Virus record (IMG/VR): IMGVR_UViG_3300021181_000017
Coordinates: 1-45,484 of that record
DNA from: a virus
Direction: 5' to 3' (one strand)
Length of the DNA stretch: 45,484 nt
Part shown: positions 1-45,484 of the stretch, piece by piece
Numbering within the stretch: position 1 is the stretch's first letter
Layout: each line of letters opens with the position of its first letter
Program-made: the position numbers and the translations under genes
The notes under the pieces: generated by a model
Seen by the model: only the letters and a program-made list of their open reading frames with translations
Database searches by the model: none
Told to the model about the DNA's origin: nothing

Positions 1-150
1 GCGGCAGCGAAGGCGGCGAAACATCGAACATCGAACATTGAACAGCCAACATCCAAGGGGGAAAGTGATACGGAAACGGTGAATCTGGCGTTGCTGGACC
101 GGCGGGCGGAGATTGCGCGGTTGAACAACCGCATCCTGGATGAGGAAGCG
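1..150. repeat. Terminal direct repeat, left copy
   Basis: Bases 1-150 match 45335-45484 with two differences, at 6 (a/g, synonymous) and 130 (c/t, Arg/Cys). This is most simply the overlap of a circular assembly or a circularly permuted genome. The differences suggest population variation or read error rather than two separate repeats. Confidence 0.85.
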
Positions 151-471
151 GCGAAGTTTGACCTGGAATTGAAGAAGGGCAAATACCTGGACCGGCACGT
201 GAGCGAGCATACGATCCGCAGCGCGCTGAAGGGGTACCACAAAATGGTGCAGCACGAGATGGAGATCAACGGGCCGAGCCAGCGGCGGGAGAAGCTGAAG
301 GGAATTATTGCGGAGTGCGTGTTGCGGGTTCCGGAGGGGGAAAGGGAGCGGGTAAAAGCGGAGCTCGCGGGATTGAGCGCGTCATTTTTTGAGTACGACA
401 CGCTCGCGCAAAAAGCGCAGATGGACCGCATCGAGGCGAAATGCGAAGCGGAAGCAGCGGCGAGCGAATAG
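1..471 (+). CDS. terS: Terminase small subunit, C-terminal part (gene continues from window end)
   Basis: The frame is open from base 1. Joined to the frame that runs off the window end (start ATG at 45092), it gives a 237-residue protein. This part starts with an Ala/Lys-rich, repeat-encoded linker at roughly residues 82-110 of the joined protein, followed by a long charged helical region ending at 471. DNA-packaging small subunits such as lambda Nu1 bind the packaging site and recruit the large subunit. The assignment rests on the N-terminal helix-turn-helix-like half, the size, and a place just before the terminase/portal block on the circle. Codon 130-132 is CGC (Arg) here and TGC (Cys) in the copy at the window end. 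Family identity is inferred. Confidence 0.6.
   Translation, partial: AAAKAAKHRTSNIEQPTSKGESDTETVNLALLDRRAEIARLNNRILDEEAAKFDLELKKGKYLDRHVSEHTIRSALKGYHKMVQHEMEINGPSQRREKLKGIIAECVLRVPEGERERVKAELAGLSASFFEYDTLAQKAQMDRIEAKCEAEAAASE
18..60 (+). repeat. Interspersed repeat family A (gaacattcaac type) inside terS
   Basis: Tandem 9-mers of the form gaacatNSaac followed by a ccaacatccaagg tail. The same family recurs at 7731, 12970, 15021, 16330, 24429, 25238, 30112, 41562 (reversed) and 42723. Here it is translated in frame as a polar linker of the small terminase. Confidence 0.85.
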
Positions 472-551
472 GCAGGCCCAAAAGATGGGGTGGTCTGGCG
501 CTTTGGGAAAACCGCTTTAGGAAAAAATGATTTCAGCGGGAAAGGATTTTT

Positions 552-586
552 TTTACCACGGATGGACACGGATCAACACGGATAGA
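552..586 (+). repeat. Interspersed repeat family B (cacggat type)
   Basis: Three tandem units of the form cacggatNNa after ttacca. Relatives lie at 12268 (cacgaat variant), 13571, 16534, 18271, 33237 and 43322. Confidence 0.75.
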
Positions 587-878
587 GCAGAGGAACCATG
601 CCGTCAAAGCGTTCCAGCAATTCCTTTGGCATTATTATGGCAAAACTATTTTAGGAAACATTTGAGGATCGCACGGCGGCGCGCAACCCAACATCTGAGA
701 GGGCAAATGCTCCCCGGAATTTTTGGACAACATTTGGCTAAAAAGTTTCGGAGAAAATTTGCGGGAAAACGCGCGGGAAAATTCGCCGGGGCCCGACCGG
801 AGTTTTTCTCGGAAAGGGAAACCGGAATTTCAAAACTTTTTGGATATCGCGGATTCCGAAAATTTGGGCCACCGCGCG

Positions 879-946
879 GAACGCCGGCCTCCGGCCCGGC
901 TTTTGTTGCCGGCATGACCGAGCCGGGCCGGAGGCCGGCGCTCCGG
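879..946. repeat. Inverted pair of repeat family F (gccgggccggaggccggc)
   Basis: A left arm (gcggaacgccggcctccggc) and a right arm (gagccgggccggaggccggc plus gctcc) face each other across about 20 bases, so RNA or single-stranded DNA from here could form a long stem. Single or degenerate members occur at 8488, 32263, 37328, 40331 and 41953. Confidence 0.7.
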
Positions 947-947
947 C

Positions 948-7320: not shown

Positions 7321-9269
7321 ACTGGCGCGAATTAATTTTTGGGCGGGAGAAGCCGGAGCTGGCGGTGGTGGCGACGCGGCAGCGGGATGAACTTTTGACG
7401 GGGTGGGCCTCCGGGCGGGAGAACGGGATCCGGAGCTCGACGGTGGAACCGTGGCACGCGGGGGCGATCCGGGCGGACCGGGAGCATAACCAGAAGATGA
7501 CGCGCATGTACGAGGCGTCAATCACCTCGAACCTGAATCTGGATTTCGTGCCGACGGTGAACAGCGGGAACGCGGAGGTTTTGGTGAGCCTCTATATTGG
7601 CAGGGGCCGGGCCCGGACGCTGGAGAAGGATGATGCTTGTTACGCGGGGATTCTCAACGCGGACATGAATAATATTTGCGGGGATGATCCGTTCCGGCTG
7701 GAGATGCAAGTGAGGGTGAATGGGAAAGGGGGAAACATTCAACATTCAACATTGAACGCTCAACGTCCAAGCGGGGACCAGACGGGGAAGGTTTCCGGCG
7801 GGACGCCGGAAACGGCGGCCGGGACGGCCGCGCTCCCGGGGGATGATGATGAGATTGTGCTGGATACGGCGGTGAATAAGCGGATCGAGGGGGCTTGGCG
7901 GGATTATGGGCGGAAGGAGAATTGCACGGTCAAAAAGGACATGTCGCGGGCGGAGATGTGGTGGCTGGCGATTGCCTCGATGAAGCGGGACGGATCTATC
8001 CTTTTCCGGCATCACCGGGAGTTTCCGTTTAATAAATCGCGGTACGCGATTGAGCCGATTGAGAGCGACCGGTTGCAGGAGTCTTACACGGGAAAATCTG
8101 AGCAGGGGAATCCAATTAGATTCTCGATCGAGCGGCACCGGAAGTATGGGTTTGCGCTGAATTACTGGATTTTGACGCGGCACCCGGGCGAGGTGTTCGC
8201 TTACAACGGGCCGACGCCGAACACGTGGCGGGAACGGGTGCCGGCGGAGGACATCATTCATTTCAACAATATCCGGACGCGGGCGGACCAGGACATCGGT
8301 TTTCCGGCGTACGCGCCGATCATCCAGCATTTACATTTGTGCCGGCAATTCACGCGGGCGCATGTGACGGCGGCGATCTGGGCGCAGGCGAAGCCGTATT
8401 TCATCATCCAGGATTATCCGACGGGGAGTCCTTATATTGGCGATCCTTCGCCGTATGCGAATGCGGTGGAGGTGGGGAACGGGAATGCCGGGCCGGAGGG
8501 CGGCGCTCCGGGGCGGAGAGGCGATGGGCGCGGGGGCGGGCGGAATCCGATCACGGCGGTGGAACCGGCGACGGGGGAGGAGTTGCAGATGGGGAAGAAG
8601 CCGTTCCTGGTGGACCCGAAGTTTCCAAATGAAAACGCGCCGGGGTTCATGAAGAACCAATATGAGATGGTGGCGGCGGGGAGCGGGAAGGCTTACAGCA
8701 CGGTCTCGTGCGACGTGGAGAAGAATTCATTTTCGACAATGCGCAGCGCATTGGTGCCGGAGCGGGATGATTATCGGAAACACCAGCGGCACATGGAGGC
8801 GAGCCTGGTGCGGCCGCATTTCGAGGCGTGGCTGGAATGCGAGTTGTTGTACGGGACTTTGATGGACCTGCCGTTTTCGCGTTACGAGGAGTTTTGCAAG
8901 GCGGCGGTGTTTCACGCGAAGCGGTGGCCGTACATCCAGCCGGTGCAGGACGCGCAGGCGGACATCCTGTGGATGGAGGAAAATATTAAATCGCCGCAGC
9001 AGGTTTTGGCGGAGAGCGAGGACGGGGGCAACCTGGAGGACATTCACGCGCAGATTGCGGCGGCGGTGAAATCCGAGAAGGCGCATGATATTTGGGAAGA
9101 TCCGACGGTGGCGATGCCGAGCCTGAAGAAAGGACCGCCGGGACAGCCGCAGGCGGCGGCCAATCAACCGGCGGCGAAGCCGGGGACAGGGAAGGGGAAG
9201 CGGAATGGCGCGGATTGGAAGCGGGCGGCGAGGAATGGGATGCTGCGAGGGCAGGAGGACAGGGAATGA
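7317..9269 (+). CDS. Portal protein, lambda gpB type
   Basis: 650 residues. The dodecameric portal forms the DNA channel at one head vertex and docks terminase and neck. Recognised by the family-like EPIESDRLQ region and, later, VPAEDIIHFNNIRTRADQDIG followed by helices (HLCRQFTRAHVTAAIWAQAK), as in the lambda portal family (PF05136), plus a Gln/Ala/Pro-rich C-terminal tail. The ATG overlaps the methyltransferase stop. Oddities: residues ~139-176 are encoded by repeat families A and C, inserted in frame as a polar loop (GGNIQHSTLNAQR and a GGTPETAAGTAALPG segment), and ~391-400 by a family F copy (GPEGGAPGRR). These probably sit in surface loops. Confidence 0.85.
   Translation: MNWRELIFGREKPELAVVATRQRDELLTGWASGRENGIRSSTVEPWHAGAIRADREHNQKMTRMYEASITSNLNLDFVPTVNSGNAEVLVSLYIGRGRARTLEKDDACYAGILNADMNNICGDDPFRLEMQVRVNGKGGNIQHSTLNAQRPSGDQTGKVSGGTPETAAGTAALPGDDDEIVLDTAVNKRIEGAWRDYGRKENCTVKKDMSRAEMWWLAIASMKRDGSILFRHHREFPFNKSRYAIEPIESDRLQESYTGKSEQGNPIRFSIERHRKYGFALNYWILTRHPGEVFAYNGPTPNTWRERVPAEDIIHFNNIRTRADQDIGFPAYAPIIQHLHLCRQFTRAHVTAAIWAQAKPYFIIQDYPTGSPYIGDPSPYANAVEVGNGNAGPEGGAPGRRGDGRGGGRNPITAVEPATGEELQMGKKPFLVDPKFPNENAPGFMKNQYEMVAAGSGKAYSTVSCDVEKNSFSTMRSALVPERDDYRKHQRHMEASLVRPHFEAWLECELLYGTLMDLPFSRYEEFCKAAVFHAKRWPYIQPVQDAQADILWMEENIKSPQQVLAESEDGGNLEDIHAQIAAAVKSEKAHDIWEDPTVAMPSLKKGPPGQPQAAANQPAAKPGTGKGKRNGADWKRAARNGMLRGQEDRE
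7731..7842 (+). repeat. Repeats A and C in tandem inside the portal gene
   Basis: Family A (7731-7770) is followed by family C (7792-7840), a double palindrome: ccggcgggacgccgg and cggccgggacggccg. The total length keeps the portal frame open. Other C copies are at 15065, 17331 and 21606. Confidence 0.8.
8488..8516 (+). repeat. Repeat family F inside the portal gene
   Basis: gccgggccggagggcggcgc then tccgg, read in frame as a Gly/Ala/Arg-rich loop. Confidence 0.6.
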
Positions 9270-9290
9270 CCAATGACCAAACTCCCAAGG
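9266..9290 (+). repeat. Repeat family I (accaatgaccaatgacc)
   Basis: gaatgaccaatgaccaaactcccaagg at the 3' end of the portal gene, overlapping its stop codon. Near-identical copies are at 17236, 21564 and 44250. Confidence 0.75.
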
Positions 9291-9761: not shown

Positions 9762-9796
9762 GGTTTTGGAAGGGTGTCCGCGTTTCAGTTTAACGC

Positions 9797-9838
9797 CCGC
9801 CCTCACCCCGGCCCTCTCCCCCAGGAGAGGGGGAAAGG
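9797..9838 (+). repeat. Repeat family G (ctcaccccggccctctccc)
   Basis: The block ends in a hairpin (ctctcccccaggagag) plus ggggaaag. Further copies at 12346 and 19771 are translated inside genes. Confidence 0.8.
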
Positions 9839-9883
9839 ACGGCAGCCGCGGTTGCAAGCGATGCGCATTTGACGGCGGCAGTT

Positions 9884-9908
9884 GCTGCGGGTCATAGACC
9901 CGCGCTCC
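9884..9908 (+). repeat. Repeat family E (gcgggtcatagacccgc)
   Basis: Palindrome gcgggtcatagacccgc followed by gctcc, directly abutting the TTGACT motif of the capsid gene. Copies at 19085, 19568, 27194, 31702, 41986 (reversed) and 42062. Confidence 0.8.
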
Positions 9909-9909
9909 G

Positions 9910-9915: not shown

Positions 9916-9931
9916 CAAGGGGATTTTGCGC

Positions 9932-12265
9932 ATGGCGAAGAGTTATTTTCGAGCGGGAGTGTTGGAAGCGATCACCGGGAAGGGCGCGAAGCGCGGGTTC
10001 GCGCTGTCGTTCGCGAGCGAGTATCCGGTGCTGCGCAAGGACAAGCGCGGGGTTTATTGGGAGATTTTATCACACGGGCCGGGGGACGCGAAATTGGGTT
10101 TGCTGAATCGCGAAGGGGTGGTTTTCCAGGATCACGATGACACGCAGGAGATTGGCGTGGTGACGAAGAAATCGGCCCGAGTGGATACGGACCATAAGAC
10201 GCGGGCGGAAATTGAACTGGCGGAGGCGGGCTGGCGGACAAGGGCGAAAGCGGACCCGGAGGAAATACCGATCAGCGTTGGTTACAACCGGATGGCTTTG
10301 ATCCGCGTGGTGCCGGGGGCGGACGGGATCCCGGAGCGCTGGTATTCCTGGGAGCCGTATGAAGTGAGTTTGCTCACGGGAGCGCCGGCGGACCCGACGG
10401 TGGGGCTGAATCGCGCGGCGGCACAGGATGACGAGGCGTTTTGCCGGGAGACGCCGCCGACGGTGGAAGGGAAAGACGGGCCAGCGGCCCGTCTCTACAA
10501 ACGCGCGGTGACGCATCGGTGCGGGCGGTGCGAGGGGACGGGGCGATGCGCGTGCCGCGAGGACGATGACGCGCGGGCGGACAAGGATTGCGAATTGTGC
10601 GAGGGGGACGGGGATTGCCACGAGTGCGAAGGGGACGGGCAGTTCGTATCTGCACGGGCGAGCGAGAGACGCCCCAGCGGGGCGTCTCTACAAGACGGGG
10701 TTGACTCAATCACAGATTTAGATGCAGCGGGAATCAACAAACAACTGACGAAGAAACAGCGCGAAGCTATGAGAATTTTATTGAAGGGTGATGCGGATGA
10801 CGGCGGGGACAACAAAGCGGTGTTGGACGCCGCGGTGAGGACGACGACGGAAAAGGTTTCCAAAGAAACGCGGGAAGCGACCGCCACGTCGTACAAAGCG
10901 CGCGCCAAAGAGATTAACGCGGTGGTGAACAAGCACCTCGAAAAGCACGGCGAGCGCATGACGAAGGTGGGCGACAAGGAAGTGAAGTTGCGGGACCGTT
11001 TGGGCGTGATCGCCGCGGAAGCTTTGGAGAGTGACGAGGCGATTGCGGAATTCAAGACCCGTTGCCTCGAGGAAATTACCGCGAGCAAGGAGCCGGTGCC
11101 GGTGATGGCCAGTGATTTTGCCACCCGCGAAGAGATGAGCCAGTTTTCATTGATCCGCTCGATCCAGAGCGCGGCGAAGCAGCGGAGAGAGGGCAAGGAA
11201 GGTTTTCCCCAGGAACTCGAGGGCGATATTTCCAAGGAATACATGAAGCGCTGCCGGGAATCCGAGGGCGGTTACGGAGCGGAGCCGCAGGGTTTCATTG
11301 TGCCGCCGGATTGCCAGTTTGGCTGCGCAAGCATGACGCGGGCGGAGGCGAAGAGCCAGTTCCGCAAGCTGGTGAACCGTTACGGCCGGGACATGCAGGC
11401 GACGAATTTCGGGGCGGGCGGCGCGGTGGTGCCGACGTTCTGGCTATTGCCGGTGATTGAATTGCTGCGCAATAAAACGGTTTTGAACCGGGTGGGCATG
11501 CGGACTCTGGCGGGGCTGACGGGGAATGTGATTTTGCCGCGGTTGGAAGCGCCTTCAACGGCTTACAGCCTGGCGGAAATTGCCGCGGGGCAGGCGAGCC
11601 AGCAGACGCTGGGCCAACTGACGGCGATGCCGCACCGGGTGTTTAACGAGGTGGATTATTCCAAGCAATTGGTTTTCCAATCGAGCCCGGACATCGAGGC
11701 TTTGATCCGGGACGACATGTTCCAGGTGCTGGGTCTGAAGCGGGACATTTTGGGCCTGAACGGCCAGGGCGCGAACAGCGAGCCTTTGGGAATTTTGAAC
11801 ACGCCGGGAATCGGCACGACGACTTTTGGCGCGACGCCCACCTACAAGCAGATGGTTGGGTTCGAAACGACGATCCGCTCGCTGAACGTGACGGGCAAGC
11901 TGAGCTATGTGAGCACTTCGGCAACGAAGGGTTCGCTGAAGACGGTGGCGGAAGCGTTGACCGGGGCGACGACGATCGGCGGGGCGCAGAACGCGATCTG
12001 GAAGAGCATCGGCGGGGACGGCGAGGATGATGGCGTGGTGAACGGCTGCCAGGCGATTGATTCGCAACAGATCCCCAACAATCAAGTACTCGCGGGAGTG
12101 TTCAACCATTTTGTCGAGTGCATGTGGTCGGGCCTGGATATTGTCGTGGATTATTTCACGAAGGCGAGCAACGCGGAGGTGCGGGTGATCATGAATCTGT
12201 GGTTGGACTTCCTGTGCCGGCATCCGCAGGCGTTTGAGGCCTCGACGGACGCGGGCAACCAATAA
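9932..12265 (+). CDS. Prohead protease-major capsid protein fusion with DnaJ-like zinc-knuckle insert
   Basis: 777 residues from ATG 9932. Residues ~1-165 match the HK97-type prohead protease plan (family U35): a D-H-D at 67-69 (catalytic His68 candidate), a SVGY at 115-118 (Ser115 candidate) and EVSLL..APADP near 144-155. Residues ~197-236 hold four Cys knuckles (CGRCEGTG, CAC, CELCEGDG, CHECEGDG), as in the DnaJ cysteine-rich domain. Residues ~257-395 are charged and coiled-coil-like, consistent with the scaffolding/delta region. From ~395 an HK97-fold capsid follows (GGAVVPTFWLLPVIELLRN, EAPSTAYSLAE, LGLKRDILGLNGQG). The zinc insert is bracketed by two repeat D copies. Protease-capsid fusions are known; this insert is new to me. 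Confidence 0.82.
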   Translation: MAKSYFRAGVLEAITGKGAKRGFALSFASEYPVLRKDKRGVYWEILSHGPGDAKLGLLNREGVVFQDHDDTQEIGVVTKKSARVDTDHKTRAEIELAEAGWRTRAKADPEEIPISVGYNRMALIRVVPGADGIPERWYSWEPYEVSLLTGAPADPTVGLNRAAAQDDEAFCRETPPTVEGKDGPAARLYKRAVTHRCGRCEGTGRCACREDDDARADKDCELCEGDGDCHECEGDGQFVSARASERRPSGASLQDGVDSITDLDAAGINKQLTKKQREAMRILLKGDADDGGDNKAVLDAAVRTTTEKVSKETREATATSYKARAKEINAVVNKHLEKHGERMTKVGDKEVKLRDRLGVIAAEALESDEAIAEFKTRCLEEITASKEPVPVMASDFATREEMSQFSLIRSIQSAAKQRREGKEGFPQELEGDISKEYMKRCRESEGGYGAEPQGFIVPPDCQFGCASMTRAEAKSQFRKLVNRYGRDMQATNFGAGGAVVPTFWLLPVIELLRNKTVLNRVGMRTLAGLTGNVILPRLEAPSTAYSLAEIAAGQASQQTLGQLTAMPHRVFNEVDYSKQLVFQSSPDIEALIRDDMFQVLGLKRDILGLNGQGANSEPLGILNTPGIGTTTFGATPTYKQMVGFETTIRSLNVTGKLSYVSTSATKGSLKTVAEALTGATTIGGAQNAIWKSIGGDGEDDGVVNGCQAIDSQQIPNNQVLAGVFNHFVECMWSGLDIVVDYFTKASNAEVRVIMNLWLDFLCRHPQAFEASTDAGNQ
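10471..10500 (+). repeat. Repeat family D (gagacg..ccagcgg..cgtctctac), left of the zinc knuckles
   Basis: aagacgggccagcggcccgt then ctctacaa, in frame in the capsid fusion gene (KDGPAARLYK). Confidence 0.8.
10664..10694 (+). repeat. Repeat family D, right of the zinc knuckles
   Basis: gagagacgccccagcggggc then gtctctacaag, in frame (RRPSGASLQDG). With 10471-10500 it brackets exactly the Cys-rich insert. Confidence 0.8.
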
Positions 12266-12267
12266 TT

Positions 12268-12300
12268 TCAACCACGAATAAACACGAATTGACACGAATC
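12268..12300 (+). repeat. Repeat family B, cacgaat variant
   Basis: Tandem cacgaat units between the capsid gene and the next start codon. It contains TTGAC 17 bases before ATG 12306. Confidence 0.65.
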
Positions 12301-12965: not shown

Positions 12966-12969
12966 CCGG

Positions 12970-13010
12970 GGAAACATCGAACATCCAACAGCGAACGCCG
13001 AACATCGAAG
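12970..13010 (+). repeat. Repeat family A
   Basis: gaaacatcgaacatccaac and further 9-mers fill the gap between the 12306 and 13024 genes. Confidence 0.75.
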
Positions 13011-13023
13011 GAAAAACAGAAAT

Positions 13024-13602: not shown

Positions 13603-13652
13603 AAGACCAAAGAATTTTTGCAGGAGCTAACAGAGGCAACCGGGGAGGGAAC

Positions 13653-32129: not shown

Positions 32130-33187
32130 AAATTTATCCGTTCATGCGCCCCATTCCTTTCAAACCCGTTCGTTTGAGGCGGTTGCGCGGTTTTTTGGGA
32201 GGGGCGAAGGTTTGAATCCTGCGCCACTTTTACCTTTATTACAATCGTGGAAGCGGCCGGGGAGGGCCGGGCCGGAGGACGGCGCTCCGCCCAAAAATCG
32301 AAGGCGAGTTGCGGGGTTTTTTCATCGCCGGGGATGACGGCGAACCATTCGCGGGCCAGGTCCTCGGGGACGGGCCGGCGGTAATTGGTCTTGATTATCC
32401 AGGGGGAGTTGCCGGATTCATCCGCGGTTTGGGTGATGTTTTTCGTCAGCGCCAGGCGGTAGCTGATGAAGGATTTTCGCAGGATGTTGCGGGTCTGGTT
32501 TTTCCCGGCGGGGATGGCGGCCTTCTGCTTGGCGCGGCCGAGGGCGGCGGAGGTTTTTTTTAATTCCACCATGACCGGGCCGCGGCGTTGCGCGGGCGGG
32601 AGCCGGTCAAGGATCAGGGACAACCAGCCAAACAAATTATCGGAGATCGGCGTGATGCGGTCGCGGCCGCCTTTGCCCGCGGCTTTGGGGACGTAGATTT
32701 GCCGCCGGGGCAGATCAATGTCCGACCATTTCATGCGGCGCACTTCGCGGTGGCGCAACCCGGCGAAGGCCTGGAGGACAGTAAAGGCGAGCATGTTGGG
32801 CAGCGTGCCGGCCAGGAGCTTCTGCAATTGATCCACGGCGAGAATGCGCGGCTCTTTGGGATGGGCCTTGGGTTTTTCCACCTGGAGAATTTCGCGCCAA
32901 TCCATGGGCAGATAGCCCCAGGCTTTGGAGTAGTTGACGAGGCGGACGATGGCGGCGCGGTAATTGTTGCGGGTCTCGACGCACACGCCGAGCGAGCGGA
33001 GCCAAAGGTTGATGTCCGCGGCTTTGACCTCGGTGATGGGGCAATCGAACGATTTGCCGAACCGCCGCAATTGCTGGCCGAGGGTTTTCTCCCAATCCTC
33101 GCCCGCTTCATCCTGTTTAAGGGAAATGAGCAATTCGCGGATTATCTCGGGGCATTTTTTCTGAGGGGATATAGGGGGAGTTGACAT
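32126..33187 (-). CDS. int: Divergent tyrosine recombinase (phage integrase family)
   Basis: 353 residues from ATG 33187. A SAM-like N-terminal domain (residues ~15-105) is followed by a catalytic domain with GLRHREV (Arg145), a Lys/Gly turn (PKAAGKGGRD), NILRKSF (Arg237) and TNYR (Tyr269, the candidate nucleophile). The usual His of HxxR is Asn234 and the usual GH-motif His is Asn260, so the enzyme is divergent or impaired. The frame stays open 69 codons further upstream through repeats and a membrane-like segment. C-terminal residues VAQDSNLRPSQ are antisense to a tRNA T-arm-like sequence. It would mediate site-specific integration. Confidence 0.7.
   Translation of the reverse strand: MSTPPISPQKKCPEIIRELLISLKQDEAGEDWEKTLGQQLRRFGKSFDCPITEVKAADINLWLRSLGVCVETRNNYRAAIVRLVNYSKAWGYLPMDWREILQVEKPKAHPKEPRILAVDQLQKLLAGTLPNMLAFTVLQAFAGLRHREVRRMKWSDIDLPRRQIYVPKAAGKGGRDRITPISDNLFGWLSLILDRLPPAQRRGPVMVELKKTSAALGRAKQKAAIPAGKNQTRNILRKSFISYRLALTKNITQTADESGNSPWIIKTNYRRPVPEDLAREWFAVIPGDEKTPQLAFDFWAERRPPARPSPAASTIVIKVKVAQDSNLRPSQKTAQPPQTNGFERNGAHERINL
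32197..32226 (+). other. tRNA T-arm-like sequence near the int 3' end (attP candidate)
   Basis: ggcgaaggtttgaatcctgc with flanks resembles the T-arm and 3' acceptor part of a tRNA (loop tttgaat; stem gaagg/cctgc with one mismatch). Phages that integrate in tRNA genes carry such a piece next to int. The match is imperfect and no full tRNA is present. Confidence 0.3.
32263..32292 (+). repeat. Repeat family F
   Basis: ggccgggccggaggacggcg then ctccgcc, inside the int coding region (antisense to it). Confidence 0.6.
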
Positions 33188-33197: not shown

Positions 33198-33395
33198 GGG
33201 GGAATGGGGCCAATTGAACCCATTCCGGGGGTTTTAGCCACAGATGGCACCGAAGGCACGGATTTAAGAAGGGTCGGTGAAATCTGTGCAATCCGTGGCT
33301 GATTAAATGGGGAGATGCGTGCCAGCCACAGGCCAAGCGCCAGCCCAATGCCCAGCAGCATTGCCCCGATCAAAATGGGTCCAATTGGCCCCATA
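33188..33395 (-). other. Upstream open stretch of int: membrane-like segment plus repeats
   Basis: In frame with int, from ATG 33394, read: two GPIGPI peptides from repeat H copies (33378-33395 and 33203-33223), a strong hydrophobic segment (ILIGAMLLGIGLALGLWLA), and a repeat-B-like region (33237-33301, cacagatggcaccgaaggca). It may be a small membrane protein whose stop was lost, or simply leader DNA. Confidence 0.4.
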
Positions 33396-36811: not shown

Positions 36812-37630
36812 ATGAACCAAAATCACAACGGTACAATTCCCGTCCTGGAACATCCGCCCGGCCGCACGCATCACCTCGCGCCGGAAGACCGCGAGGACGT
36901 GGCCGAACTCATGGACGATGAGTCCACCCGGCGCGAGCTGGAGATTTCCGTCGCAAAAATCCGGCGCGGCCTGAAAGTCTTTCTTGAAGTCGGCAACGAA
37001 CTCATGCGCATCCGGAACCTCAAGCTGTATCGGCTCGAGGCGGCGACCTTTGAGGAATTTTGCCAGAACCGTTTCGGCTTTGCCGCCCGTTACGCGCGGC
37101 GGCTCATCATCGCGTCGGATATCGCCGGGAACCTCTCCGGCGCGGGCAAGGGGTCCAATTGGCCCCCTTTGCTGCCGGCGAACGAAGCCCAATACCGCCC
37201 CCTGGGCCTGCTGCCGCCAGACCAATGGACCAGCGCCTGGGAGGAAGTGTTGCAAACCGCGCCTGAGGGCGTCGTAACCGCCCGGCACGTCCAGGGCGTG
37301 GTAAACCGCCGCCTGGGCAAACCGGAAGCGCCGGCCTCCGGCCCGGCTCGCTCTGCCGATACTATCCAAACGGATGGCATCCGCGGAACGGCGCCCGGCA
37401 CTGCCACGCCGGGCGTCCTTCCCCCCATCGACGTCCCCTCGCTCGCCACGCGCGAGGAGGAATTGCGCCACACCGCTGAGGAAGTCCTGGCCAAACTGCG
37501 CGAGCTGGAGGCCAAGATCGGCGCGCCCGATTCCATCGCCAGCAGCGAAATCAGTTTCGCAAAGGAAAAACTCGAAGCGTTTTTGGAACACCTCGCCCGC
37601 GTCGAAAAACTCCAGGAATCCCGCGCATGA
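36812..37630 (+). CDS. Early protein with a domain shared with the 43333 gene
   Basis: 272 residues. Residues ~48-110 (FLEVGNELMRIRNLKLYRLE then ATFEEFCQNRFGFAARYARR) resemble residues ~30-85 of the 43333 protein, a helix-turn-helix-like domain common in plasmid and phage proteins. A second conserved part (QYRPLGLLPPDQWTSAWEEV) and a C-terminal coiled coil follow. Repeat H (37154-37168) adds GSNWPP, and repeat F (37328-37357) with its flank adds a Pro/Ala-rich linker. Probable DNA-binding regulator or partition-like factor; not certain. Confidence 0.55.
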   Translation: MNQNHNGTIPVLEHPPGRTHHLAPEDREDVAELMDDESTRRELEISVAKIRRGLKVFLEVGNELMRIRNLKLYRLEAATFEEFCQNRFGFAARYARRLIIASDIAGNLSGAGKGSNWPPLLPANEAQYRPLGLLPPDQWTSAWEEVLQTAPEGVVTARHVQGVVNRRLGKPEAPASGPARSADTIQTDGIRGTAPGTATPGVLPPIDVPSLATREEELRHTAEEVLAKLRELEAKIGAPDSIASSEISFAKEKLEAFLEHLARVEKLQESRA

Positions 37631-38869: not shown

Positions 38870-40000
38870 ATGAGCCAGCTTTCCCCCCGGGATTTCGCCG
38901 CCGCCGAACTTGCCCTTTACCGCGAACTTCACACCCGCGAATTCCGCCGCGAGCATTGGGACCTCATTAATTTCATCAACGACCGCTCCCTTAAAATCTG
39001 CCTCGCCGGCGCCGATGTTCCTGAGAAAAAAATATTTCGCGCCGCCGTTCCGGACAAAGGCAATGTCACCCGCCGCCTCGAGGAGCTGCTCCGCTGGGAA
39101 GTCCTCCTGCTGGACCAGATCCACTACTACTATTTCAATTTGAATTTTGACGGCTGGACCGCTCCCCGCCGCGCGGATAAAGGCGGCCGCAAGCTCCGTA
39201 AAGACACGGATCCCGTTGAGGAACCGCTGTTTTTGCAGTATGGTGAACTGCCGGAGAGTAAAGCGTTTCTGCGCCAGTTTTTCCTTGCAAAAATCGCGGG
39301 AAAATATTCTAAAATTTTGTGCGTCGGTGTAGGGTCTCCGCTGGTAGCTGGACGGCAAGCTGAGGATGAAGGAACCTCCTCAGTCCAAAAGAGTGTTAGC
39401 CCAGTCCGGGCTGCTCCCATTGCTGACCCGGCGGAGAAAAATCCTCCCCTGCCTGGCGCACAATTAATTTCCGAGGCCCCGCCTCCGGGCGGATGGTGGA
39501 ACTTTTATCGCGAACAAATCGCCGCCGGAAAACTCACCACCGAAGAAGCCTCCGCGCTTTACGAGAAAAAAGTGGCAATTGAATTGCCCATCCGGGCTGC
39601 GCCGCAAAATCTATCGCCGCCACGCAATCCACCGCAACCAAATAAAATTCCGCCGCCGCCCGATCCCGAAAAAGAATCCGCCGCCTGGCAATGGGTCGTC
39701 TCGCTGGATAAACGCAACCGCCTTGCCGATCTCCGCTGCGGGTTGCAGTGGCAGGACGCCTGCCGCCGCCACGCGCGTTACGTTTTGGAGAGCCTGCCCC
39801 ATGCCTGGGCCCGCGCCCTGCGCCGCGACCGGCCGCCGCCCGATCCCCTTGCGTGGCTCTCCGGCAAAGCCATCAGCGAGCGCAAAATGCACAAGCTTTA
39901 TTCGCCGGAAATCGAGGAACTTTTGCGTTCCGGCGCGGTTGGTGATTTACCAACCGCGCCCGTCCCGACCGGTTCGGTTGGCAAATTGCCAACCCAATGA
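38870..40000 (+). CDS. Replication initiator, lambda O-like (probable)
   Basis: 376 residues. The N-terminal ~110 (FRREHWDLINFINDRSLKIC then GNVTRRLEELLRWEVLLLDQ) have the winged-helix plan of phage O-type initiators. A Pro-rich variable middle follows, then a C-terminal helical domain (WQWVVSLDKRNRLADLRCGL; QDACRRHARYVLESLPHAWA). The last ~20 codons contain two palindromic iterons, so the protein ends in sequence dictated by its own putative binding sites, as lambda O carries ori within its gene. It probably binds these sites and loads the host helicase. Assignment rests mainly on the iterons and the N-terminal pattern. Confidence 0.5.
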   Translation: MSQLSPRDFAAAELALYRELHTREFRREHWDLINFINDRSLKICLAGADVPEKKIFRAAVPDKGNVTRRLEELLRWEVLLLDQIHYYYFNLNFDGWTAPRRADKGGRKLRKDTDPVEEPLFLQYGELPESKAFLRQFFLAKIAGKYSKILCVGVGSPLVAGRQAEDEGTSSVQKSVSPVRAAPIADPAEKNPPLPGAQLISEAPPPGGWWNFYREQIAAGKLTTEEASALYEKKVAIELPIRAAPQNLSPPRNPPQPNKIPPPPDPEKESAAWQWVVSLDKRNRLADLRCGLQWQDACRRHARYVLESLPHAWARALRRDRPPPDPLAWLSGKAISERKMHKLYSPEIEELLRSGAVGDLPTAPVPTGSVGKLPTQ

Positions 40001-40163
40001 TTTTTTGAGGATTTTAGCGGTTGGCAATTTGCCAACTTTGGCGGAAACCTCAACGCTGTGGCCTGTTTTTCGGTTGGTAATTTGCCAACCGTCGGACCAA
40101 AAACAGGCGAATGGTTGCCCAGGCGGTTGGTAATTTGCCAACCCGGTTGGTTTTTTACCAACT
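39937..40163. other. Putative replication origin: six 19-bp palindromic iterons
   Basis: Copies at 39937, 39976, 40019, 40072, 40125 and 40145, each close to GGTTGGTAATTTGCCAACC. 39976 (GGTTGGCAAATTGCCAACC) is a perfect palindrome. Intervals are 39, 43, 53, 53 and 20 bp. The copy at 40072 is further flanked by cctgttttt / aaaaacagg arms. An AT-rich stretch follows at about 40284-40325. The arrangement resembles lambda ori, where O-binding iterons lie in the O gene next to an AT-rich region. An operator array is the alternative. Confidence 0.65.
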
Positions 40164-40296: not shown

Positions 40297-40330
40297 ATTT
40301 GAAGAATCAGCTATAGAAGAAAAAAACGGA

Positions 40331-40353
40331 AAGCCGGACTCCGGCCCGGCTGA
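40331..40353 (+). repeat. Repeat family F, degenerate
   Basis: aagccggactccggcccggc then tga, 13 bases before ATG 40366. Confidence 0.55.
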
Positions 40354-40533: not shown

Positions 40534-41084
40534 AGCCAGACCAAAAATTTCACGACGGCAAAGCTTTTAAAAGCGTCGAAGAGTTCATGGATCTGCAAGG
40601 CGTCATGCACGAAATCAAACTCGATGATGGCCAGCGCCAGATGATTCTCACCGCCATGGCTTTGCTGGCCATCAAGCGGCCCGGCTGGCAGCACGCCCTT
40701 TCCGATATCGCCCTGCTGATGGACAACCCGCTTCCGGACGGACGTCCGCAAATTTTCTCGGAGATGCAAAAATTCAATCGCGGCCCGATACAATTAAAAT
40801 GGGAATACCAGGTCGAGAATTATACCTGGTTCGCCAGCGTCCCGGCCATTGATCACCACGGCAAAGGCTTCCTGAACATCCACGCCATGATGCGTCCGGA
40901 ATATTGCGACCGCGGCAAATGGCATGTGCTGATCGAGCCGGTTGGCGTCGCGGGTCCGGATAATCAAGAAGGGTTTCCCCGTTACTATTTCAGCCTGGCC
41001 AATCTCAAAGACGAAATGGAGGCCTGGGTAAACAACCGGAACAAATGCCGGCGCGCTTTCAGCGAATCACAAACCCAGCCATGA
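40530..41084 (+). CDS. Hypothetical early protein
   Basis: 184 residues, start in the stop of the 40366 gene. N-terminal helices (FHDGKAFKSVEEFMDLQGVM then GQRQMILTAMALLAIKRPGW) and a beta-rich C-terminal half (YTWFASVPAIDHHGKGFLNI). No motif recognised. Its place after the presumed initiator and origin equals that of helicase loaders, but no P-loop is present. Its stop overlaps the 41081 start. Confidence 0.5.
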   Translation: MKPDQKFHDGKAFKSVEEFMDLQGVMHEIKLDDGQRQMILTAMALLAIKRPGWQHALSDIALLMDNPLPDGRPQIFSEMQKFNRGPIQLKWEYQVENYTWFASVPAIDHHGKGFLNIHAMMRPEYCDRGKWHVLIEPVGVAGPDNQEGFPRYYFSLANLKDEMEAWVNNRNKCRRAFSESQTQP

Positions 41085-41584
41085 CCACCCGCATCCATAA
41101 TTCCAAAATGGAAATTCCGCGGATTTTGCCCGTGGCATGGCCGGATGAACCGGAACCACTCATCAAGCCCATTGGCCTATGGTACGGCGTCGATGGCGGC
41201 TGGCAGGAAAGGTGTGCAGCGGATTTTCCCGAACACATTCACGCCTTCAATTATTCGGTGGACGCCTCCCGCGCCAATGTTCTGTTGCTCGATAGCATCC
41301 CAAAAATGCTGGAGTTCGAGCGCAAATTTTTTAACAACGATTCTCCACTGAATAAAACCTTTCCCGCCACCCATGATTTTCACCCGCTGGAGATAGATTG
41401 CTACGCGATAAACTGGCGCGCGGTCGCGGCCGAATATGATGGCATCGAAATCGCTCCCTATCATTGGCCGATGCGCATGGCGCGGATGTGGTATTACTCC
41501 TGGGACTGCGCCTCCGGCTGCGTCTGGAACACGGAGAAAATTTCCATCGGCCTGATTAATCCCCCCTTGGATGTTCAACGTTGA
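41081..41584 (+). CDS. Conserved phage-type hypothetical protein
   Basis: 167 residues from ATG 41081 (ATGA overlap). It has a pattern I recall from many phages of different hosts: KPIGLWYGVDGGW near residue 25, then YSVDAS...VLLLDS, and YDGIEIAPYHWP followed by YYSWDCASGCVWN. The conserved Trp/Tyr/Glu positions suggest an enzyme or nucleotide-binding fold, but I know no demonstrated activity. The last residues (NPPLDVQR) and stop are supplied by a reversed repeat A. Confidence 0.55.
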   Translation: MTTRIHNSKMEIPRILPVAWPDEPEPLIKPIGLWYGVDGGWQERCAADFPEHIHAFNYSVDASRANVLLLDSIPKMLEFERKFFNNDSPLNKTFPATHDFHPLEIDCYAINWRAVAAEYDGIEIAPYHWPMRMARMWYYSWDCASGCVWNTEKISIGLINPPLDVQR

Positions 41585-41609
41585 ATGTTGAATGTTGGAT
41601 GTTTCCCTG
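41562..41609 (-). repeat. Repeat family A, reversed orientation
   Basis: ccttggatgttcaacgttga and further units ending gtttccc. It is the only copy on the reverse strand and ends the 41081 gene. Confidence 0.8.
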
Positions 41610-41637
41610 CCCGACAGCCCATCGGGTATAAGGCCGA

Positions 41638-41955
41638 ATGGTGGGGTATTCGGTTTCGCCCTTACATTGCAGGGTGCCTCCAACTGTCATTGACGTTAAA
41701 TCCATATCCCGGTTGTCGCCGCAACAAGAGCGAATCCTGGACCTGCTCCACCACGGATTGACCTACAAAGAGGTGGCCGCCGCGCTGCAACGATCCATAA
41801 GCACGATAAAAACGCACGTGGGAATTATTTTTCATAAGACGGGATCGCGCTCGCGAGCGGAGGCGGCGTTTAATTTGTTCGGGCGGCAGCATTGCGCTTT
41901 CGACGTGCCCATAACTCATCTGCCGGTGAAGTGCCGGCGGGCGAAGGCGGCCTGA
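41638..41955 (+). CDS. LuxR-type helix-turn-helix regulator
   Basis: 105 residues. LSPQQERILDLLHHGLTYKE, then VAAALQRSISTIKTHVGIIF and HKTGSRSRAEA, is a clear GerE/LuxR-type DNA-binding domain (about residues 26-80). No receiver or autoinducer domain is present, so it is a stand-alone HTH as in some phage activators. ATG 41638 is used; GTG 41641 is possible. It precedes the Gam-like gene, whose start lies in a palindrome (42142-42164) that could be its site. Confidence 0.65.
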   Translation: MVGYSVSPLHCRVPPTVIDVKSISRLSPQQERILDLLHHGLTYKEVAAALQRSISTIKTHVGIIFHKTGSRSRAEAAFNLFGRQHCAFDVPITHLPVKCRRAKAA

Positions 41956-42088
41956 GCCGGGCCGGAGGCCGGCGTTCCGGAGCGCGGGTCTGCGACCCGC
42001 AGCCACATCCGCAAACCAAGCCGCTTCCTGGTAATCCCAAAGAGTTTCTAACTGGCGCGGCGGCTGCGGGTCATAGACCCGCGCTCCC
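41953..42088 (+). repeat. Repeat block: F (41953-41981), E reversed (41980-42005), E (42062-42088)
   Basis: gagccgggccggaggccggc, gcgggtctgcgacccgc and gcgggtcatagacccgc within 136 bases, with no gene. It ends 46 bases before the TTGACT at 42134. Confidence 0.75.
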
Positions 42089-42141
42089 ATCGGCCATTTG
42101 GCTGACGGGCGTTTGGCCGACTGCCGGAGGGAGTTGACTTG

Positions 42142-42164: not shown

Positions 42165-42689
42165 ACAATCTCACCCCCCGGCCGGTTGGCTGGAAAAATT
42201 CCAAAACTTCAAACTCGGGAGGCCGTTGAATCCGCCCTGGGCGAACTGGCCTTGCGCCGCACGCGGATCAAGACGGAAGAGCAGGGGCTCCAGGAGGAAA
42301 TCACCAGCGCCCGCACCCGTTGCGAAGCGGACACGGCGGCGGACCGCGCGGAGGGGACGCGGCTCGAGGAGCAGCTCGAGGCCTGGGCCAATGATCATGG
42401 CGAGGAATTTAAGGAAAAACGCTCGGTGGATTTTATCCATGGCACGGTGGGCTTTCGCCTGGGGCAGCGGCAATTGAAGACGCGCGCCAAATGGACGTGG
42501 GCGGATGTGGCGTTCGGCCTGCTGGGCAAGATGGAGGATTACGTGCGGCGCACGCCGGCCGTCGATAAGGAAAAGATTTTGCGGGACGCCGGGGGCGAGC
42601 AACCGGTGCTGGATGCGGAGGAGTTGAAGGAGATGGGCGTGAGGGTGGTGCAGGAGGAGAATTTTTATGTGGAACTGAAGGAACTGTGA
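42159..42689 (+). CDS. gam: Host-nuclease inhibitor, Mu Gam-like
   Basis: 176 residues from ATG 42159 (GTG 42141 is possible). An N-terminal coiled coil (ALGELALRRTRIKTEEQGLQ) is followed by KRSVDFIHGTVGFRLGQRQL and a C-terminal region with VDKEKILRDAG...LKEMGVRVVQEENFYVELKE, the order and wording of the Mu Gam family (PF07352). Mu Gam is Ku-like: it binds DNA ends and protects them from host exonucleases. A free-end stage during infection or replication would need this. Followed by a gene whose GTG option overlaps its stop. Confidence 0.75.
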   Translation: MSTISPPGRLAGKIPKLQTREAVESALGELALRRTRIKTEEQGLQEEITSARTRCEADTAADRAEGTRLEEQLEAWANDHGEEFKEKRSVDFIHGTVGFRLGQRQLKTRAKWTWADVAFGLLGKMEDYVRRTPAVDKEKILRDAGGEQPVLDAEELKEMGVRVVQEENFYVELKEL

Positions 42690-42768
42690 GACGCGCCAGC
42701 GGCGGCGTCTCTACAAAATTAATGGGAAAACATTCAACATTGAACATTCAACATCGAACGCCCAATTG
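42687..42768 (+). repeat. Repeats D (42687-42716) and A (42723-42768)
   Basis: gagacgcgccagcggcggcg then tctctac, followed by aaacattcaacattgaacat. They form the junction between gam and the next gene and encode its N-terminus. Confidence 0.8.
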
Positions 42769-43297
42769 TCCGGCGTGCAATCGGCCGGCGGGGGAGTTGA
42801 TCCGGGGAGTGTGCGGAAAATGCAAAGTGAATTTTGCGGCGGCGCACAAGGGGAAGCTCTTGGTGGAATGGAGGCCTGAAGACTTTAAGTATCGTGGCGC
42901 GGATTGCGTGGTGCGGGTTCCGGAGGGGAATGGACATCCCATCATGGACGAGGAGGACGCGGGTAAGGCGCGGGCGCGGGAAATCATCGCGGTGGCGCGC
43001 GAGGACGCGGCGGATTTTTACAAACGGCTGATTCGCCTGGTGATCCAATACCAGGGGGACCGGATGATGGCGCTCCAGGCGGCATGCATCGCGATGGAAT
43101 GGTTCGAGGTGGTTGGCTGCGAGGAGGCGACGGAACTGGCGGTAAAACTTTACGGCAATCCCAAACGCAAGGCGGCGGTGAGCAAGGCGGTGAAGATGTT
43201 CCAGGACGCATTGGGCATCGAGCCCGGCCGCGGGCAACGCTCCGCCGGCGCGCGGCAGGCGATGGGACGGGCAAGGAAAAAACAATTACAGCGTTGA
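42722..43297 (+). CDS. Hypothetical protein with N-terminal zinc ribbon
   Basis: 191 residues from ATG 42722, which lies in repeat A; GTG 42686 in the gam stop is the alternative. After a repeat-encoded start (GKHSTLNIQHRTPN) comes CPACNRPAG...CGKCKVNF, a zinc ribbon. A helical domain follows (DAADFYKRLIRLVIQYQGDR, then MMALQAACIAMEWFEVVGCE) with a basic tail (GRGQRSAGARQAMGRARKK). Likely DNA-associated; no family recognised. Confidence 0.5.
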   Translation: MGKHSTLNIQHRTPNCPACNRPAGELIRGVCGKCKVNFAAAHKGKLLVEWRPEDFKYRGADCVVRVPEGNGHPIMDEEDAGKARAREIIAVAREDAADFYKRLIRLVIQYQGDRMMALQAACIAMEWFEVVGCEEATELAVKLYGNPKRKAAVSKAVKMFQDALGIEPGRGQRSAGARQAMGRARKKQLQR

Positions 43298-43352
43298 AAC
43301 GTTGAAACGTTGAAACGGAATTTGAACCACGAATGAACACCAATAAACACGA
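43293..43352 (+). repeat. Repeats M (gttgaaac x3, 43293-43318) and B variant (43322-43352)
   Basis: Tandem gttgaaac is followed by accacgaatgaacaccaata. The start codon of the 43333 gene lies inside the second repeat. Confidence 0.7.
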
Positions 43353-44268
43353 AGTGGAAAAAAAACTTTCGCCAGCGGAGACGCGGGAACTGGCGCGGCA
43401 TGAGAAGACAATCCGGCAGGGGTTGGGGAAATCGCTGAAGGTGTGGCAGGCGTTGAACCAGATCCGGGAGCAGCGGCTTTACCGGGAGAAGTTCGGGACG
43501 TTCGAGGATTATTGCCAGCGGAAGCTTAAGATTAGCCGGTCCCGGGCTTATCAGCTTTGCTGGGCCGCTGCCAAATCCATCGCGCTGGCGGAGCAGGGGA
43601 TTGCGGTGGAGAACGAATGGCAGTCGCGGAATTTGTCCACGGTCGTGGACACGGCGGAGACGGGCCAGCGGCCCGTCTCTACAACCGAGACAACCACTTA
43701 CGATGAGCGGGCATTGCGGCAGCATAAGCTGGCGCTGGCGGAACAGTTGCAGTTGATCCGGGACCGGCGCGGGCATCTGGCGGAAGGGATGGCCGCGCTG
43801 AAACGGTTGATGATGGAGAACGCGCGGATCTCGCGGGAGATCGGGCTGCGCTGGCAGGCGGCGTGCAATCATGATCGGATGACTCCGGAATTTTTCGCGA
43901 AGAATTTGTGCGCGGACCTGACGGGGAGCGATTTCGCGGAGGCGAGCCGGACCATCGCGATCGCGCGACGTCTGAAGGACAGCGAAGTGAAGGACCTGGC
44001 GGAGGTGGCGCCGCTGGCCCAGGAGCTGATGGGGGCGAGCGGATTGATCGAGACGCCGCGGCGGACATCGCCGCAGAAGGCGAGCGAGGTCGGATTGTTG
44101 GAAGTTCTGTTGAACGGCCTGACGAAGTTCCGGCAATTGTTCGAACGGGTGCAGCGGGACCGGGCTTCGAGCGAATGGACGGCGGCGGAGCGCCGGGCGT
44201 TTTTGAAAGACACGGAATGGCTGGCGCGCGAGCGGGAGGAGATTGCCGCAATGACCAATGACCAATGA
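43333..44268 (+). CDS. HTH-domain protein, related in part to the 36812 gene
   Basis: 311 residues from ATG 43333. Residues ~28-85 (GLGKSLKVWQALNQIREQRL then YREKFGTFEDYCQRKLKISR) match the pattern of the 36812 protein, so the two share a domain. A repeat D copy (43657-43684) adds ETGQRPVSTT in frame. The C-terminal half is a long charged helical region (RTIAIARRLKDSEVKDLAEV). Probably DNA-binding; a ParB-like or regulatory role is possible. The last codons lie in repeat I. Confidence 0.5.
   Translation: MNTNKHEVEKKLSPAETRELARHEKTIRQGLGKSLKVWQALNQIREQRLYREKFGTFEDYCQRKLKISRSRAYQLCWAAAKSIALAEQGIAVENEWQSRNLSTVVDTAETGQRPVSTTETTTYDERALRQHKLALAEQLQLIRDRRGHLAEGMAALKRLMMENARISREIGLRWQAACNHDRMTPEFFAKNLCADLTGSDFAEASRTIAIARRLKDSEVKDLAEVAPLAQELMGASGLIETPRRTSPQKASEVGLLEVLLNGLTKFRQLFERVQRDRASSEWTAAERRAFLKDTEWLAREREEIAAMTNDQ
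43657..43684 (+). repeat. Repeat family D inside the 43333 gene
   Basis: gagacgggccagcggcccgt then ctctacaa, in frame. Confidence 0.8.
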
Positions 44269-44282
44269 CCAATGACCAAGCA
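44250..44282 (+). repeat. Repeat family I
   Basis: Three to four tandem atgaccaatgacca units spanning the stop of the 43333 gene and the start of the 44265 gene. Confidence 0.8.
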
Positions 44283-45089
44283 TCCCAAAATCAAATGAGT
44301 TTTCCAATAGATGGCGCGAACTGCCAGGGCGATTCGGTCTATGACCGCGAGGCGAGGTGCATCGAGGCGGTGACGGTGTGCGTGGGGTTTGACGATATGC
44401 TGGACCTGACGCTGGGGTTGAATCATCCGCACCTGGATTTTTTAACGGTGATCACCAGCCATGAGGACGCGCGGACGCATCGCGTTTGCCAGAAGCATTC
44501 GGTCAATTGCGTGAAAACGGATTTGTTCCGGAAGAACGGCCGCCGGTTCAACAAGGGCGCGGCGATCAATGCCGGCATGGACCATTTTCAGCTTCACGGC
44601 TGGCGGCTGCACCTGGACGCGGACATCGTGCTGCCGGATAATTTTCGCCGGGTGCTTTTCAACCACACGTCGCTGGAGCGGAATTGCCTTTACGGCGCGC
44701 CGCGGGTGGACGTGGTGGGCAAGGAGGCGATTGCCGCATTCGTCCAGGCGCGCAACCGGTTTCCGCAGCACGCGCATAACACGGGGATCTCGCCGGTGCA
44801 TGGGGGCGCGGTGCATTGCCCGACGCCCTCGGCCTCGAGCGCGGTGTTTGTCTGTAATTTGCGCGGGTATTGTCCGATCGGGTTTTTTCAATTGTGGCAC
44901 GCGTCCGAACAACGGCCGTATCCGCACAGCCTGGGGACGGCGGCGCATGATGATGTGATGTTCGCGCAGAGCTGGCCGGAGGCGCGGCGGCGGGTGTTGC
45001 CGACGGCGTTCTGCTATCACATTTCCGGCGCGCCGCCTTTTTACGGGGAGAACTGGGACGGGCAACGCCGGCAGCCGAGGATTGATTGA
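44265..45089 (+). CDS. GT-A fold glycosyltransferase
   Basis: 274 residues. ATG 44265 lies in repeat I; ATG 44295 is an alternative. The core has an AVTVCVGFDDML start, a Rossmann-like LTVITSHEDAR..VCQKHSVNCV, KGAAINAG and LHLDADIVLP with the DAD metal/nucleotide-sugar motif (about 118-120), as in GT2-type enzymes. Later HNTGISPVHGGAVH and HDDVMFAQSWPE are typical acceptor/catalytic regions. It would transfer a sugar from a nucleotide sugar to DNA, protein or a surface glycan. Next to the small terminase gene; with the adenine methyltransferase it hints at modified phage DNA. Confidence 0.7.
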   Translation: MTNDQASQNQMSFPIDGANCQGDSVYDREARCIEAVTVCVGFDDMLDLTLGLNHPHLDFLTVITSHEDARTHRVCQKHSVNCVKTDLFRKNGRRFNKGAAINAGMDHFQLHGWRLHLDADIVLPDNFRRVLFNHTSLERNCLYGAPRVDVVGKEAIAAFVQARNRFPQHAHNTGISPVHGGAVHCPTPSASSAVFVCNLRGYCPIGFFQLWHASEQRPYPHSLGTAAHDDVMFAQSWPEARRRVLPTAFCYHISGAPPFYGENWDGQRRQPRID

Positions 45090-45091
45090 AA

Positions 45092-45484
45092 ATGAGTTCA
45101 AAGCTCAAGGTTCAAAGTTCAAAGCAAAAGACCAAGCAGGCTGCAAGCCGTCTGCCGAAGCGGGTGCGGACTTTGCGCGTGCTGGCGGAGCTGGTCCGGC
45201 ATCATTTTAAAATTCCCTGCGACCGAATGAAACTCAAAAATTGGCAGACGCGGCGGGACCCGCCGTTTCCATCACCGGGCGCGAATAACGAATATGAGGT
45301 GAAGGGGTGTTTGGAGTGGGTGGGGAAATATGTTGCGGCGGCGAAGGCGGCGAAACATCGAACATCGAACATTGAACAGCCAACATCCAAGGGGGAAAGT
45401 GATACGGAAACGGTGAATCTGGCGTTGCTGGACCGGCGGGCGGAGATTGCGCGGTTGAACAACTGCATCCTGGATGAGGAAGCG
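45092..45484 (+). CDS. terS: Terminase small subunit, N-terminal part (continues at base 1)
   Basis: ATG 45092. Residues 1-20 are polar (partly from a caaagttcaaag repeat). Residues ~20-75 (LPKRVRTLRVLAELVRHHFK then IPCDRMKLKNWQTRRDPPFP) form a helix-turn-helix-like domain as in Nu1-type packaging proteins, which bind cos or pac. The frame passes into the terminal repeat at 45335 and is the same frame as base 1, giving 237 residues on the circle. It follows the glycosyltransferase gene by 2 bases. Confidence 0.6.
   Translation, partial: MSSKLKVQSSKQKTKQAASRLPKRVRTLRVLAELVRHHFKIPCDRMKLKNWQTRRDPPFPSPGANNEYEVKGCLEWVGKYVAAAKAAKHRTSNIEQPTSKGESDTETVNLALLDRRAEIARLNNCILDEEA
45335..45484. repeat. Terminal direct repeat, right copy
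   Basis: 148 of 150 bases equal 1-150; the differences are at 45340 and 45464. Confidence 0.85.

Follow-up and report, generated by a model that had tools for sequence, protein, structure and literature searches.

A phage genome rich in short dispersed repeats, several of them shared with Limisphaerales chromosomes and oriented with GC skew

We found 62 dispersed short repeat elements, belonging to about 15 families, in a virus genome of 45,484 bp (IMG/VR virus record IMGVR_UViG_3300021181_000017; this whole stretch is called the window). The window encodes a large terminase, a head-tail joining protein, a portal protein, a major head protein, an integrase and a Mu Gam-like protein, indicating a temperate tailed phage. 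Several of the repeat families belong to genomes of Limisphaerales (Verrucomicrobia subdivision 3), two adjacent elements form an in-frame insertion in the portal gene, and the elements keep a coherent orientation that follows GC skew. The reading that we prefer, with a probability of about one half, is that short repeats of the host lineage were inserted repeatedly and strand-specifically into the phage genome, probably into single-stranded DNA. Each of the repeat classes has chromosomal precedents; the saturation of a phage and the strand rule appear to be new.

With a terminal repeat removed, self-blastn of the window returned 219 matches; three length-matched sequences simulated with a third-order Markov model returned 0, 0 and 2. 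The matches merge into 59 segments (2,494 bp) in 16 groups, and repeated 16-mers cover 438 positions (4-10 in the simulated sequences); splitting the copies gives the 62 elements. By our own gene calls, 24 of these lie well inside genes, 19 between genes, 12 across a start or stop codon and seven inside a gene within 30 nt of its end. An earlier reading of the sequence alone (the sequence-only reading) had proposed at least 14 families in roughly 60 places, with A and C in a fixed compound order. Both proposals agree with our results: A is followed by C at 7727-7840 and again at 15016-15116. A chimaeric assembly was considered and rejected, given that conserved genes contain elements in frame and that other viruses show the pattern too.

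The families fall into unrelated classes. Heptamer arrays comprise families A, H and L as well as single arrays, F and K are CACGGAT-type repeats, B is a GTAG-tagged palindrome, C, E and G are palindromes with GGAGC-type tags, I is the CCCTCACCCC family and D is a perfect palindrome. The six copies of B consist of a palindrome of 20-40 bp with an unpaired GTAG at one end (GTAGAGACGGGCCGCTGGCCCGTCT, minus strand). Period 7 stands out over lags 2-15 in the window, and likewise in a distant relative (L025) and in hosts, while no period-7 array was found in the closest relative (L017) or the other related phages of this periodicity test. Heptamer arrays beyond those of the sequence-only reading are present at 14190, 18498, 24393, 25288 and 45095. 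At a looser threshold, the window has 11 heptamer arrays. None of these 11 has an inverted partner of the REPIN type (REP doublets forming hairpins; REP, repetitive extragenic palindrome), compared with 34 of 58 arrays in the best-matching host genome, G001. Only families G and K form inverted pairs in the window.

We then compared the window with its phage relatives. A related terminase occurs in about 18 IMG/VR contigs (37-51% identity). The closest relative that shares the gene order is L017 (53% identity in the portal, 51% in the capsid), and L025 is a distant one (terminase 38% identical). In the portal gene, a family A array (7727-7777, plus strand) is directly followed by family C (7783-7840, plus strand), a double palindrome of CCGGCGGGACGCCGG and GGCGGCCGGGACGGCCGCGCTCCC. 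Together they encode 39 residues; in each of the seven relatives, 29-35 of these face a gap, and the homology is in frame on both sides. This A+C block is an in-frame insertion, not ancestral sequence, so that repeats do occur in coding regions without breaking the frame, as had been proposed. A predicted portal model had a mean pLDDT (predicted local distance difference test) of 43.8, too low for placing the insert. In the major head protein gene, the first of two family B copies (10461-10503, plus strand) is partly gapped in L017 and the second (10664-10696, plus strand) almost wholly so (10/11); the second is ungapped in L025, where the alignment is weak. In the gene at 19130-19852, a family E copy (19563-19600, plus strand) and a C-terminal extension past the aligned homologues, made by family I (19761-19816, plus strand), are extra relative to L017. 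Dispersed repeats amount to 54 bp per kb in the window, 92 in L025, none in L017 and 0-7 in other relatives, with 21 in the partial L019. Relatives thus lack the insertions rather than carrying the same sequence at every site. Orthologue alignment revealed the portal insertion; no close strain of the window phage with empty sites was found from which exact ends and target duplications could be read. As regards terminal inverted repeats of the type seen in miniature inverted-repeat transposable elements, units of A, I and L have inverted arms in hosts and lack them in the phage.

The chromosomal character of the families, also proposed from the sequence alone, is borne out by host genomes. Among 85,462 species, the family A pattern was found in 13 stretches of seven genomes, all seven in Limisphaerales, their record titles reading Verrucomicrobia, subdivision 3 or Limisphaerales. 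G001 (metagenome-assembled genome FW301_bin.11) carries A, F, I and L at high copy; some of its contigs were sampled because of matches, so its densities are upper estimates. Families C and G are present in G004 and E in G002. Of 20 phage copies of families A, F, I and L, 15 are nearer to a copy in a chromosome than to any other in the phage, in favour of repeated, independent acquisition. The opposite mostly applies to B, C, E and G, whose copies tend to have their nearest match in the phage itself, which is what one would see if the right families were missing from the sampled hosts. The host is an uncultured Verrucomicrobia-type bacterium, probably an unsampled relative of the Limisphaerales genomes tested, since B, D and H were not found at high copy in them. 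The true host was not found with patterns for A, B and the L025 palindrome and a D/K-region query, which gave partial sharing only. A 3.1-kb contig of a Limisphaerales genome (L048, G240:C190) contains a strong relative of the terminase (627 bits), which supports the view that the phage clade has its hosts in this order. A TerL search of the genome contigs (genome_contigs) and one among INPHARED phages gave no relative. Two observations concern the chromosomes themselves. In host loci L100-L119 and L186-L204, the 7-bp units of the heptamer arrays are of very many kinds, suggestive of a general process that generates period-7 arrays. In host G060, clustered GTAG palindromes (L205:3760-5008) include three within an 863-aa open frame on the minus strand, apparently a chromosomal gene with in-frame REPs.

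Orientation differs between host G001 and the viruses. In G001, 24 of 25 copies of A, 10 of 10 of L and 38 of 51 of I are in inverted pairs, mostly in spacers between tandem genes, and direct and inverted dispersed matches are balanced (165:167). Viral copies are mostly single-armed and strand-coherent, with direct:inverted ratios of 82:18 in the window, 221:47 in L025 and 266:2 in one other virus. The difference in arms is softened by G002, which has unpaired A copies, though the search seems to have missed a second arm in some of its apparently single I copies. Family I runs in the direction of the genes in the window and L025 and opposite to them in four other viruses that obey the same skew rule; orientation set by transcription was therefore dropped. 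Across contigs, family I orientation agrees with local GC skew in 38 and disagrees in 8 (p=9e-6; the cut-offs, an absolute skew of at least 0.03 and 3-kb flanks, were our choice, and contigs may share ancestry), compared with 31:22 for gene direction (p=0.27). Composition alone would predict the opposite sign, because the G-rich strand carries the C-rich arm of family I. The skew rule is also obeyed by GTAG palindromes, whose sequences are unrelated to family I, in five of five skewed viral genomes; one of the two reversed GTAG copies in L025 is located where the skew is locally opposite. The window has 43 forward elements, all in positive skew, and five reversed ones, two of which are in negative skew (Fisher p=0.009), namely the family G copies at 37322-37358 and 40327-40351 (both minus strand). 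The skew rule suggests that elements are inserted, or survive, according to DNA strand. As host copies are paired, such a rule could not show in the chromosome.

Saturation of this kind is found in other viruses as well, unrelated ones included. L025 is more saturated than the window, with the same repeat classes in different sequences, and its palindrome CGCAACCTNAAGGTTGCGGCTAC has chromosomal matches in 10 of the 320 genomes of the order, the reversed control in 0. Family I matches 84 stretches of IMG/VR. Among 16 family-I records tested for the window's terminase, one shows a match, which is weak, and several of the nine family-I viral records examined in full are rich in dispersed repeats; in one of the nine, G337, much of the repeat signal is low-complexity coding sequence and not such elements. 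A literature search, covering few subscription journals, retrieved no account of phages saturated with such repeats, nor of the strand rule.

On the reading that we prefer, the elements would be repeats of Limisphaerales, namely heptamer arrays like the short tandemly repeated repetitive (STRR) sequences, GTAG-tagged REPs, GGAGC-tagged palindromes and the CCCTCACCCC family, which entered the window phage, and likewise other phages of repeat-rich hosts, by many largely independent insertions. Their insertion or survival would depend on the DNA strand through the strand asymmetry of the phage, not through transcription. The simplest explanation would be that an enzyme of the host, acting in trans and possibly with HUH/TnpA-like chemistry, inserted them at replication forks, where the DNA is single-stranded, and the surviving copies would be those that are intergenic, at start or stop codons, or in frame at tolerant sites of virion proteins. 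It is known that TnpA(REP) cuts single-stranded GTAG REPs in vitro (PMC8266576) and that the lagging-strand template is the target of IS608 and ISDra2 (PMC6006769). It is conceivable, but we think it somewhat doubtful, that a single host-encoded, replication-strand-specific process other than a REP-associated transposase (RAYT) spread all these unrelated classes (heptamers, GTAG and other palindromes, CCCTCACCCC) and acted in trans on phages.

Several points weigh against the preferred reading. If skew marks the leading strand as usual, the GTAG strand lies on the leading-strand template, unlike the target of IS608. No Y1_Tnp (PF01797) gene was found in nine phage records, and the families are not enriched beside 20 host RAYT genes (three matches in 68 kb, none of them B); a RAYT as the driver, as the sequence-only reading had suggested, is thus not borne out. 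The phage copies are not whole host units, given that A, I and L of G001 are mostly inverted pairs and the phage has single arms. Family B gave just four single matches across the 320 genomes of the order, and D and H gave none in the sampled hosts. The skew rule was found while exploring and was not predicted beforehand. The suggestion that the spread is active or recent is likewise not sustained, considering that copies of A are only 61-81% identical to the reference copy and that B, D and H are not high-copy in tested hosts.

A somewhat unlikely alternative is an ordinary, long-resident prophage that collected chromosomal repeats at the rate and by the route of any host DNA, with nothing special about phage or strand. 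The integrase gene would fit such a history, as would the arrays inside predicted host genes (18 of 47 heptamer arrays in G001, 9 of 29 in G002) and Opitutus terrae, which has the most intragenic GTAG repeats in a published survey (PMC3733652). Prophage residence does not readily account for the paired, orientation-balanced copies of G001 as opposed to the single, strand-coherent ones of phages, nor for a heptamer array density of 24-47 per 100 kb in the two phages versus 4-19 in the sampled hosts, among which the true host is not represented. Classical mobilisation in trans by a host RAYT (TnpA-REP) appears quite unlikely. In its favour, the GTAG tag of the B and L025 palindromes is one recognised by TnpA-REP (PMC8266576), and Y1_Tnp genes occur in six of eight genomes with family A-type repeats and in seven of eight with the L025 palindrome. 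On the other hand, the RAYT neighbourhoods are unenriched, no Y1_Tnp match was obtained in G060 despite its six or more GTAG palindromes, and the heptamer families and I have no GTAG tag.

Orientation following GC skew could also reflect function, if the elements were polar sites under selection, like Chi, KOPS (FtsK orienting polar sequences) or packaging signals. Known polar chromosomal motifs likewise follow skew. We regard this as highly unlikely, with about 15 unrelated sequences involved, in-frame copies in virion genes, sequences that differ between phages, and almost no such elements in L017, L015, L013 and L010. Finally, multiplication within the phage genome by a phage-encoded recombinase after a single entry is hardly credible: it matches the mutual proximity of the B, C, E and G copies, but not the chromosomal nearest copies of A, F, I and L, which appear even though the true host is unsampled, and no transposase-like gene was recognised in the phage. 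Weighing these alternatives, we favour strand-specific insertion of host-lineage repeats.

We describe the other elements along the window, all on the plus strand unless stated. A family A array (GGGAAACATTSAACATTSAACATTSAACGCCSAACATCCAAGG) at 12-61 (about 10-63) recurs as the same copy in the terminal repeat (45346-45395) and was counted once. It is followed by F at 549-584 (ACCACGGATGNACACGGATNAACACGGAT) and an inverted pair of G at 876-948 (876-903 minus, 919-948 plus). Another G lies in a variable region of the portal gene (8481-8515), where insertion is not proven, and the first bases of an H copy (TGACCAA heptamer, 9267-9290) form the portal stop codon. A single arm of I (9788-9846, CCCTCACCCCGGCCCTCTCCCCC...) and a copy of E (9875-9909, GCGGGTCATAGACCCGCGCTCCG) precede the major head protein gene, at whose stop codon F is found (12264-12298). 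Family I then lies near the start of the gene at 12306-12965 (12344-12400), and A begins at its last base (12965-13011). F (13566-13603) and B (13752-13794) are intergenic, and a short L copy (AAGCTCC heptamer) is at 14190-14217. The second A-C compound (15016-15116), in the portal order, is near the start of the gene at 14986-15960, and A lies near the end of the gene at 15948-16403 (16325-16379).

The palindrome D (AATGGGGCCAATTGGCCCCATT) at 16471-16503, with no assigned strand, has other copies at 3578, 6138, 16864, 31737, 33198, 33368 and 37143. An inverted pair of K (GCCACAGATGGCACGGATT...) is located at 16528-16602, also without assigned strand, and another at 33232-33299. The gene at 17225-17587 has H at its start (17232-17264) and C inside (17311-17380); that at 18257-18604 has F at its start (18265-18307) and, inside, an L array followed by B (18498-18592). 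E is intergenic at 19084-19114. At 21563-21653, H is followed by C; this H bridges two genes, covering the stop of the first and the start of the second. A GGGGAGT array followed by A (24393-24464) and an intergenic B (24529-24558) come before the gene at 25248-27191, whose start is crossed by A followed by a TATTGCG array (25234-25322) and whose stop coincides with E (27188-27219). A (30105-30161) and E followed by D (31697-31760) are intergenic, and G lies inside the integrase gene, which is on the minus strand (32260-32292). The sole reversed A (41560-41611, minus strand) is at the stop of the gene at 41045-41584. A cluster of G (plus), E (minus) and E (plus) at 41954-42093 is among the few inverted arrangements in the phage. 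A lies near the start of the gene at 42686-43297 (42719-42766). F (43318-43354) supplies the start codon of the gene at 43333-44268, which contains B (43653-43689), and an H array (44249-44288) likewise overlaps both the end of one gene and the start codon of another after it.

Some other features of the window were observed. It has a 150-bp direct terminal repeat (1-150 and 45335-45484) with two mismatches, representing either att-like ends or an overlap from circular assembly. Repeats of 30-40 bp, with two copies each, occur at 2432-2471/3534-3573, 3219-3251/36718-36750 and 310-339/42899-42928, the first and last of which have no match in the sampled hosts. The major head protein (phrog_617, 9926-12265) has CxxCxGxG-type cysteine motifs like those of the DnaJ zinc finger, conserved in L017, in a stretch flanked by the two capsid B copies. 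Five copies of GGTTGGYAATTTGCCAAC within about 210 bp (39931-40142) occupy the end of a gene and the sequence after it; the gene weakly matches a DnaD-like helicase loader (phrog_16826, E=0.003). This cluster may be a replication origin or operator array, and the perfect palindrome D may likewise represent regulatory or origin sites. A single-sequence capsid search of IMG/VR, an Rfam search and a tRNA search of the window gave no match.

The way in which REP-like and heptamer repeats spread has long been an open question, as chromosomal copies are old, often paired and hard to date. In phages, syntenic orthologues that carry an element can be set beside others that lack it, and a strand rule hidden in chromosomal copies comes to light. 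If the rule is true in a wider survey, it would point to insertion into single-stranded DNA and provide a route to the responsible enzyme. In addition, repeat families can help connect a virus to a host lineage, and some phages tolerate in-frame insertions in virion genes.

The heptamer families recall the STRR repeats of cyanobacteria, which Vioque reportedly described within an RNA gene in 1997. The family H unit, TTGGTCA, may be identical to a cyanobacterial STRR. Like published STRRs (PMC2670836), A, H and L are tandem 7-bp units; the heptamer repeats are also dispersed, with many different units per genome, and form hairpins in G001. Unlike STRRs, they are verrucomicrobial and viral, and form no hairpin pairs in the window. 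The inverted pairs of A, I and L in G001, with a short spacer, resemble REPINs (Bertels and Rainey 2011, PMC3116915), whereas the phage copies are single arms and none of these three families has a palindromic GTAG REP as its arm. Strand-specific insertion is shared with the single-strand transposases of IS200/IS605 and TnpA-REP (PMC6006769, PMC8266576), although the phage has no transposase and its strand preference relative to GC skew has no obvious match there. Insertion in frame into protein-coding genes that stay open, seen here in the portal A+C block, is reminiscent of Rickettsia palindromic elements; here the genes are those of phage virions, many families are involved and a strand rule applies. 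GTAG-tagged REPs are abundant and intragenic in Opitutus terrae, a verrucomicrobium (Di Nocera et al. 2013, PMC3733652; a word-start search of this article for 'phage' gave no match). They are like the family B and L025 palindromes in length (20-40 bp), in the GTAG at one end, in being sometimes intragenic and in belonging to the same phylum, but those described here reside in phage genomes, alongside many other families, and keep one orientation.

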